DNA from: Flavobacteriales bacterium
Lineage (GTDB): Bacteria; Bacteroidota; Bacteroidia; Flavobacteriales; UBA7430
Direction of reading: 5' to 3'
Length of the DNA stretch: 43,148 nucleotides
Assembly (NCBI GenBank): GCA_029247585.1
Contig: JAQWKY010000090.1
Coordinates: 1-43,148, forward strand
The translations under genes were made by a program, and so were the position numbers. The notes under the pieces are model-generated. The model ran no database searches. It worked only from the letters and a program-made list of their open reading frames with translations, and was not told the origin of the DNA. Within the stretch, counting starts at the first letter, position 1. Every line of letters begins with the position of its first letter. Of this stretch, positions 1,310 through 24,870 are shown in pieces.

Positions 1310-1340
1310 AAAAAAAAACCTTTCGATGAGGAAAGGCTTT
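1310..1340 (-). terminator. intrinsic terminator (attenuator) in the leader of the sulfite reductase gene
   Basis: Minus strand AAAGCCTTTC-CTCATC-GAAAGGTTTT followed by an uninterrupted T-run; ends about 30 nt before the reductase ATG. Confidence 0.85.
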
Positions 1341-1363
1341 GTATATCTATGATTTCTTGTTTG

Positions 1364-1474
1364 TCATGAGCATATATCTAACCTTTCGTTTTGTGTACAA
1401 CAACACATTACATAACAGGCACAACAATTCATCATTGCGTTGTTCTGGTTAGTGTATGTATTTGAATTTTTCAT
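1364..1474 (-). CDS. Cys-rich leader peptide, ORF2 (36 aa: MKNSNTYTNQNNAMMNCCACYVMCCCTQNERLDICS)
   Basis: Manual codon-by-codon reverse-strand reading; 7 Cys in 36 residues; between ORF1 and the terminator. Confidence 0.65.
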   Translation of the reverse strand: MKNSNTYTNQNNAMMNCCACYVMCCCTQNERLDICS

Positions 1475-1524
1475 GCTGTTGGTTTGTATGGGTAATTTTG
1501 AGTCTGCTTAAATGAAGGTTCACC

Positions 1525-1611
1525 TTAGCAACAACAGCAAGCTGCCTGTGTGGATACACAAGCTGATCTAGAAAGATCATTCGATAGGGCTAAAAAAGTA
1601 ACTTTGTTCAT
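1525..1611 (-). CDS. polycysteine leader peptide, ORF1 (28 aa: MNKVTFLALSNDLSRSACVSTQAACCCC)
   Basis: Manual reverse-strand reading; ends in four consecutive Cys codons (TGC TGT TGT TGC) followed by TAA, upstream of sulfite reductase. Confidence 0.75.
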   Translation of the reverse strand: MNKVTFLALSNDLSRSACVSTQAACCCC

Positions 1612-1650
1612 CACTTTTAGGGTCTGTAAAGAATTGTTAAAAACTTTTTG

Positions 1651-1683
1651 TAAATATACAACCATAATCGACTATAAAACAAA
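1651..1683 (-). promoter_or_regulatory. candidate promoter for the Cys leader/sulfite reductase transcript
   Basis: Minus strand TTTG (1683-1680), 21-nt spacer, TATATTTA (1658-1651), close to the Bacteroidota TTTG / TAnnTTTG consensus; about 40 nt upstream of ORF1. Confidence 0.45.
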
Positions 1684-4393: not shown

Positions 4394-4424
4394 AAAGCGA
4401 CCCAAAAAAAAGAAAACAAAAAAA

Positions 4425-4521
4425 GGGCAAGCTACTTAAATCACAGTGCTCAACCCTCTACCCTTGCTGCGTTCCCGCCCTGGGGGAATTCGAGGGGAGC
4501 GACTTGTCTAAGACTTGCCCC
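4425..4521 (-). ncRNA. ffs: signal recognition particle RNA (small bacterial 4.5S type)
   Basis: Minus strand GGGGCAAGTCTTAGACAAGTCGCTCCCCTCGAATTCCCCCAGGGCGGGAACGCAGCAAGGGTAGAGGGTTGAGCACTGTGATTTAAGTAGCTTGCCC then a T-rich tail; terminal GGGCAAG/CTTGCCC pairing, SRP-like apical core, and TATCTTTG -7 box (4532-4525) just upstream. Confidence 0.85.
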
Positions 4522-4524
4522 GCG

Positions 4525-4532
4525 CAAAGATA
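4525..4532 (-). promoter_or_regulatory. -7 box TATCTTTG of the SRP RNA promoter
   Basis: Exact TAnnTTTG match on the minus strand immediately before the RNA 5' end. Confidence 0.6.
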
Positions 4533-24759: not shown

Positions 24760-24791
24760 AAAACCTCCTCAATAATGAGGAGGCTTTGTAC
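24760..24791. repeat. direct repeat copy 2 / tRNA-Leu terminator hairpin
   Basis: aaaacctcctcaataatgaggaggctttgtac; on the minus strand CCTCCTCA-TTAT-TGAGGAGG-TTTTTG directly after the tRNA. Confidence 0.8.
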
Positions 24792-24870
24792 CTGGGGCGG
24801 GAATCGAACCCGCACTCTCGAAAGAACTGGATTTTGAATCCAGCGCGTCTACCAATTCCGCCACCCAGGC
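24789..24870 (-). tRNA. tRNA-Leu (anticodon CAA)
   Basis: GCCTGGGTGGCGGAATTGGTAGACGCGCTGGATTCAAAATCCAGTTCTTTCGAGAGTGCGGGTTCGATTCCCGCCCCAGGTA; acceptor GCCTGGG/CCCAGGT, anticodon loop TTCAAAA, T-arm GCGGGTTCGATTCCCGC. Confidence 0.96.

Follow-up and report, generated by a model that had tools for sequence, protein, structure and literature searches.

The window analyzed here is the whole 43,148-nucleotide (nt) contig JAQWKY010000090.1 (assembly GCA_029247585.1) of a Flavobacteriales bacterium of the UBA7430 lineage. At one end, its minus strand carries sir, a gene for a NirA/sulfite reductase-like haemoprotein, behind a leader with two short, Cys-rich open reading frames (ORFs), ORF1 and ORF2. 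The ORF2 part of this leader is very probably a ribosome-mediated transcription attenuator of the sir operon, which would sense charged tRNA-Cys and probably also charged tRNA-Met. Confidence in the ORF2 attenuator is high and is graded apart from that in a serial gate formed together with ORF1 (see below). The parts of the leader, their conservation and their recurring geometry are established by sequence comparison.

Organization of the leader

Along the minus strand, the leader consists of a promoter-like element, ORF1, ORF2 with an antiterminator strand inside it, and a terminator with a U tract, followed by the sir ATG at 1279 (Table 1). A cysteine-responsive attenuator at this place had been proposed before from an inspection of the letters (the original prediction); its coordinates for ORF1, ORF2, GAAAGGTT, the terminator and the sir ATG were all right, base for base. 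The ORF1 peptide ends in ACVSTQAACCCC; an in-frame alternative start further up is possible, and in the relative L003 translation probably begins at the GTG at 1614. One intrinsic-terminator site was found on the minus strand, where shuffles expect 0.2 over both strands, and it is placed between ORF2 and sir, the first gene. Its hairpin folds at -9.7 kcal/mol (z -4.9). The segment GAAAGGTT begins 9 nt past the CCC codons of ORF2 and forms 8 bp with the terminator 5' arm AGCCTTTC. This copy of the terminator 3' arm, described in the original prediction, was reproduced, and the antiterminator hairpin folds at -11.4 kcal/mol (z -3.5). Antiterminator and terminator are predicted to be mutually exclusive.

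The dynamics of the switch and the sensed signal are inferred. With ample cysteine, a ribosome on ORF2 would reach the stop codon and cover GAAAGGTT, and the terminator at 1340-1315 would form. Under cysteine shortage, the ribosome would stall in NCCAC..CCC, GAAAGGTT would take the terminator 5' arm, and RNA polymerase would read through. That stalling on Cys codons frees GAAAGGTT was already part of the original prediction; computational support now comes from conservation, recurrence in 16 families and ribosome-position folding.

Conservation in the window's family

The family sample comprises four genomes in two genera (L001-L004), namely the source, two relatives from its own genus and one from a second genus. 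Only these three other genomes carry sir among those searched in the family. Across the searches made with sir, relatives were 60-95% identical. A scan of 85,462 genomes for the ORF2 motif returned the same three relatives (labeled Flavobacteriales bacteria, one of them UBA7430) together with unrelated chance-type matches, and gave no further members, which leaves four genomes in the family sample.

Both ORFs are found in the same places in L002-L004. The four-genome alignment keeps the promoter-like element, the Cys runs, GAAAGG, and the terminator arms AAAGCCTTTC and GAAAGGTTTT; the sequence further upstream of the promoter-like element is not kept. Among sir codons with a conserved amino acid, 33% are identical in all four genomes, and 15% at fourfold sites. 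Because the silent sites of sir are thus near saturation, the conservation of the leader points to selection. Changes in ORF2 are often synonymous (TAT/TAC, GTA/GTT, ACA/ACG, GCC/GCT), and ORF1 of L004 carries an in-frame insertion of 33 nt as well as six Cys codons in place of four; these observations argue for translation of both ORFs. Conservation of the Cys codons and of the alternative hairpins in orthologous leaders, on which the original prediction depended, was seen in 4/4 family genomes. The same prediction assumed no transcription start downstream of 1364. The promoter-like element, also kept in 4/4 genomes, precedes both ORFs (1683-1651) and fits the Bacteroidota -33/-7 consensus; transcription would start near 1645.

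The operon behind the leader

The operon is seen at greater length in the same-genus relative L080, where it reads sir-cobA-cysM-JAB-CysO/ThiS-like-MoeZ-like-cysH. The genes after sir encode a uroporphyrinogen-III methyltransferase, a CysM-type cysteine synthase, a JAB-domain protein, a ThiS/MoaD-like carrier, a MoeZ/MoeB-like activating enzyme with a rhodanese domain and, at the end, a CysH-type reductase. This gene set is presumably a sulfite-to-cysteine pathway of the CysO type, and therefore cysteine would be the end product of the operon. The leader ORFs are translatable and contain codons for this pathway product.

Recurrence across Bacteroidia

The survey covered up to 9 kb upstream of sir at 92 further loci of the class, several of them cut by contig ends. 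Outside the window's family, the sir operons of 25 genomes are preceded by a short Cys-run ORF and, 15-60 nt behind it, an intrinsic terminator; a few of these cases are weak (L106, L109). These leaders occur in 2/2 Flavobacteriales outside family f5 and in 23/60 other Bacteroidia; in f5, probably the Flavobacteriaceae to judge by its size and composition, Cys-run leaders were found upstream of sir in 0/30 genomes within about 9 kb. Together with the window's family, there are 37 leaders with a terminator in 29 genomes and 16 families of Bacteroidia. Poly-Cys leaders with a downstream terminator before the sir genes of related genomes, which the original prediction had suggested looking for, are thus present. 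Under the same criteria, runs of Cys were found at 28 loci, Met at 14, Leu at 9 and the remaining amino acids at fewer, and the opposite-strand control gave no Cys case.

At most other tandem loci, each of the two leaders has its own terminator, unlike ORF1 of the window, behind which there is none. The original prediction did not extend to the Met codons, the role of ORF1, the spread over the class and the tandems elsewhere that form two complete leader-terminator units.

Pairing and ribosome-position folding

For the 37 leaders, the RNA from the last Cys codon to the terminator was paired with the terminator 5' arm plus loop. The best duplex averaged -13.7 kcal/mol vs -8.8 kcal/mol for dinucleotide shuffles, and 24/37 leaders fell below p 0.05. 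The Fisher p is 3e-23 for all 37 leaders, with related loci taken as independent, and 7e-10 when each family is represented by a single leader. In 29/37 leaders, the pairing segment begins 6-13 nt past the last Cys codon; the terminator mostly starts 46-60 nt past that codon. Since the pairing segments differ between loci (GAAAGGTT, AGAGGCTT, GGAAAAGCC, CGGGAG and others), complementarity is kept though the sequence changes.

Equilibrium folding was dropped as a general test because the terminator dominates in it; co-transcriptional folding, with the transcript cut just before the terminator 3' arm and a ribosome block of 27 nt, was used in its place. The 5' arm was held by upstream RNA at a mean probability of 0.73 with the ribosome on the Cys codons vs 0.46 on the stop codon, with 31/37 leaders in the predicted direction and one reversed (Wilcoxon p 8e-9, again with related loci taken as independent). 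In the window's family, the switch is seen even in full-length equilibrium folding: the terminator probability is 0.95 in 4/4 genomes when the ribosome is at the stop codon, and falls to minima of 0.52, 0.29, 0.04 and 0.02 over the Cys codons.

Several results weigh against the attenuator. Four of the leaders (L057, L106, L129, L137) have no significant antiterminator, and the four family genomes are related to each other. In most other leaders, equilibrium favors the terminator at any ribosome position, and therefore the switch there would be kinetic. Two quite different explanations of the leader were considered. The ORFs could code for functional Cys-rich small proteins (e.g., metal or thiol binding) in front of a constitutive terminator, as the conservation of the peptides inside the family would allow; yet across families only the Cys/Met runs are common, no Pfam or NCBIfam model matched the peptides, and protein function leaves the complementarity about 9 nt past the Cys codons unexplained. 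Small proteins are accordingly rated very unlikely. Rated lower still is a riboswitch or protein-binding leader with incidental ORFs, which would account for a structured leader with a terminator but not for codon-level specificity for Cys and Met. Neither the leader nor eight related loci matched any Rfam 15 family at gathering scores; the best match below threshold, Phe_leader, reached 21 bits vs a threshold of 55.

Met codons

Within the clusters, from the first Cys codon to the last, Met accounts for 35/57 non-Cys residues. Close to the clusters it occupies 28/64 positions in the two codons before and 9/55 in the two codons after, at loci selected by Cys and not by Met. These counts suggest, with moderate confidence, that the leader peptides may sense Cys and Met jointly, which is plausible because sulfate assimilation feeds both amino acids. 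Alternatively, the Met codons could be internal start codons or reflect a preference at the nucleotide level. Sensing through Cys and Met codons combined in a single leader would be unusual.

Role of ORF1

In folding of the window's family, TGCTGTTG from the ORF1 Cys codons pairs with CAACAGCA at the ORF2 start in 4/4 genomes (P 0.68-0.88 vs shuffle means of 0.06-0.37). The ORF1 Cys codons would sequester the ORF2 start, and translation of ORF2 would occur mostly with ORF1 occupied by a ribosome. Stalling on ORF1 would expose the ORF2 start, and the next ribosome, stalled on ORF2, would open the operon. For such a serial two-step gate, with ORF1 as a second sensor in series, confidence is low to moderate. 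The arrangement would be a compact two-step switch, and it is testable. The boldest version, a class-wide sensor of sulfur supply that reads Cys and Met charging jointly and forms a serial AND gate in the window's family, is possible but doubtful; if true, the operon of the window's family would open only when both leaders report shortage.

The gate requires that an untranslated ORF2 ends in termination, by way of a protector helix. This step is tentative because the helix CTAACC:GGTTAG is weak (p 0.01-0.05 in L001-L003), and the pairing test did not find it in L004. Holding of region 2 by upstream RNA without a ribosome was not above shuffles in L001-L003, with short upstream context. In L004, moreover, the pairing of ORF1 with the ORF2 start is not significant, 0.155 of the shuffles being as strong. 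Pairing of Cys codons with a following start was also tried as a general principle and rejected, as none of eight other tandem loci and 13 terminator-less leaders went beyond chance. The weak helix, the pairing result in L004 and the lack of such pairing elsewhere count against the gate.

ORF2 and its terminator could instead be the whole regulator, with ORF1 a degenerate first attenuator, which once had a terminator and now contributes little. The terminators at each leader of most other tandem loci, missing behind ORF1, fit this account, as does the confinement of the Cys-codon:start pairing to the window's family. Unlike a relic, however, ORF1 has been kept in two genera, Cys run included, although silent sites are near saturation, and 4/4 predictions have its Cys codons blocking the ORF2 start; a degenerate ORF1 is possible but less likely than not. 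By analogy, ORF1 may also resemble the terminator-less poly-Cys upstream ORFs (uORFs) of mycobacteria, acting by translational or Rho-dependent attenuation, to which ORF2 would add an attenuator with an intrinsic terminator. Cys-run ORFs without a terminator do occur in the class before cysH-, MetY- and MetX-like genes and resemble those of Actinobacteria (PMC1262725), but such leaders show no downstream pairing beyond chance, and this mode of action for ORF1 appears rather unlikely.

Features of the window and further observations

Table 1. Leader elements, first operon gene and other features of the window
Feature	Position (strand)	Sequence	Remarks
Probable promoter, Bacteroidota type	1683-1651 (-)	TTTG (1683-1680), 21-nt spacer, TATATTTA (1658-1651)	
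ORF1 leader peptide	1611-1525 (-)	MNKVTFLALSNDLSRSACVSTQAACCCC, stop	ORF list; conserved in L002-L004
ORF1 Cys codons	1539-1528 (-)	TGC TGT TGT TGC	TGCTGTTG (1539-1532) pairs with ORF2 start region
ORF2 start region	1481-1474 (-)	CAACAGCA, through A of ATG	Predicted to be sequestered by ORF1 Cys codons
ORF2 leader peptide	1474-1364 (-)	MKNSNTYTNQNNAMMNCCACYVMCCCTQNERLDICS, stop	ORF list; conservation
Possible protector strand	1452-1447 (-)	CTAACC	Pairs with GGTTAG (1383-1378), overlapping the antiterminator segment
ORF2 regulatory codon cluster	1435-1397 (-)	MMNCCACYVMCCC	Six Cys and three Met, within or just ahead of the run
Antiterminator 5' strand	1387-1380 (-)	GAAAGGTT	Copy of terminator 3' arm
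Intrinsic terminator	1340-1309 (-)	AAAGCCTTTC-CTCATC-GAAAGGTTTT, then U tract	10-bp stem at 1340-1315
Terminator 5' arm	1338-1331 (-)	AGCCTTTC	Common to terminator and antiterminator
sir, NirA/sulfite reductase-like haemoprotein	1279-2 (-)		First operon gene, cut by contig end
Divergent ORF, 844 amino acids	1859-4393 (+)		Weak match to T9SS type B sorting domain TIGR04131, below cutoff
Bacteroidales small SRP RNA	4421-4527 (-)		Rfam RF04183, 86 bits
tRNA-Leu (CAA)	24788-24870 (-)		

ORFs of the same length as the divergent 844-residue ORF adjoin sir in L079 and L080. Tandem Cys leaders before a sulfate-assimilation operon were seen in two other Flavobacteriales families: at L058 (5439-5760) both have terminators, and at L057 (8268-8537) the second, MFCCSCCCC followed by a stop, has none. 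In L109, L118 and L155, leaders ending in CCCCCCC and a stop, without a terminator, precede cysH-like genes at a distance of about 140-160 nt. Cys/Met-run leaders without an evident terminator stand ahead of MetY-/MetX-like genes in L244, L245, L247, L251 and L252; from their sequences, we take these genes to encode O-acetylhomoserine sulfhydrylase and homoserine acetyltransferase. The codon string ATG(TGY)4 occurs in 140/395 Bacteroidia genomes, with mostly zero in the reversed-pattern control columns; among 30 loci read, the majority of matches are not leaders. Among the loci read in G000 and its relatives, other runs of four Cys codons gave no convincing leader with a terminator beside the sir leaders, further runs of G000 being judged as peptides only.

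Comparison with known systems

To our knowledge, the control of sulfur assimilation is poorly described for most Bacteroidota, and a Cys/Met leader with a terminator is a concrete, widely distributed candidate mechanism for it. Annotation misses such leaders because the ORFs are mostly under 50 amino acids long and there is no Rfam model. No description of this leader was found in the open-access literature searched. Transcriptome papers on Flavobacterium psychrophilum (PMC9723704) and Bacteroides thetaiotaomicron (PMC7366714) treat leader-peptide attenuation in general terms in the portions available.

The trp, his, thr, leu, phe and ilv attenuators share with this leader end-product codons in a leader peptide, an exclusive antiterminator and an intrinsic terminator. 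It differs from them in its Cys codons with interleaved Met, its occurrence in Bacteroidia, the recurrent tandem leaders, the lack of an Rfam 15 match, and an antiterminator strand often contained in the leader ORF itself, about 9 nt past its last Cys codon. The uORFC-8-2 motif of Rhodobacterales cysS, for which ribosome-mediated attenuation was proposed, likewise has a uORF with tandem Cys codons and then an intrinsic terminator (PMC8632094). It belongs to Alphaproteobacteria, with two Cys codons and a cysteinyl-tRNA synthetase gene, and the available part of that source reports no tandem leaders or Met runs; the window leader falls outside its definition, standing before sir in a Flavobacteriales family. 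Polycysteine uORFs are known from mycobacteria (Canestrari 2020, as cited in PMC13236596), and the poly-Cys leaders of Actinobacteria were reported to lack conserved terminator hairpins (Seliverstov 2005, PMC1262725). Like these actinobacterial and mycobacterial leaders, the present one has short ORFs with a Cys run near the stop, before cysteine genes. Unlike the actinobacterial ones, ORF2 comes with a clear terminator and antiterminator; ORF1 alone is closer to them.
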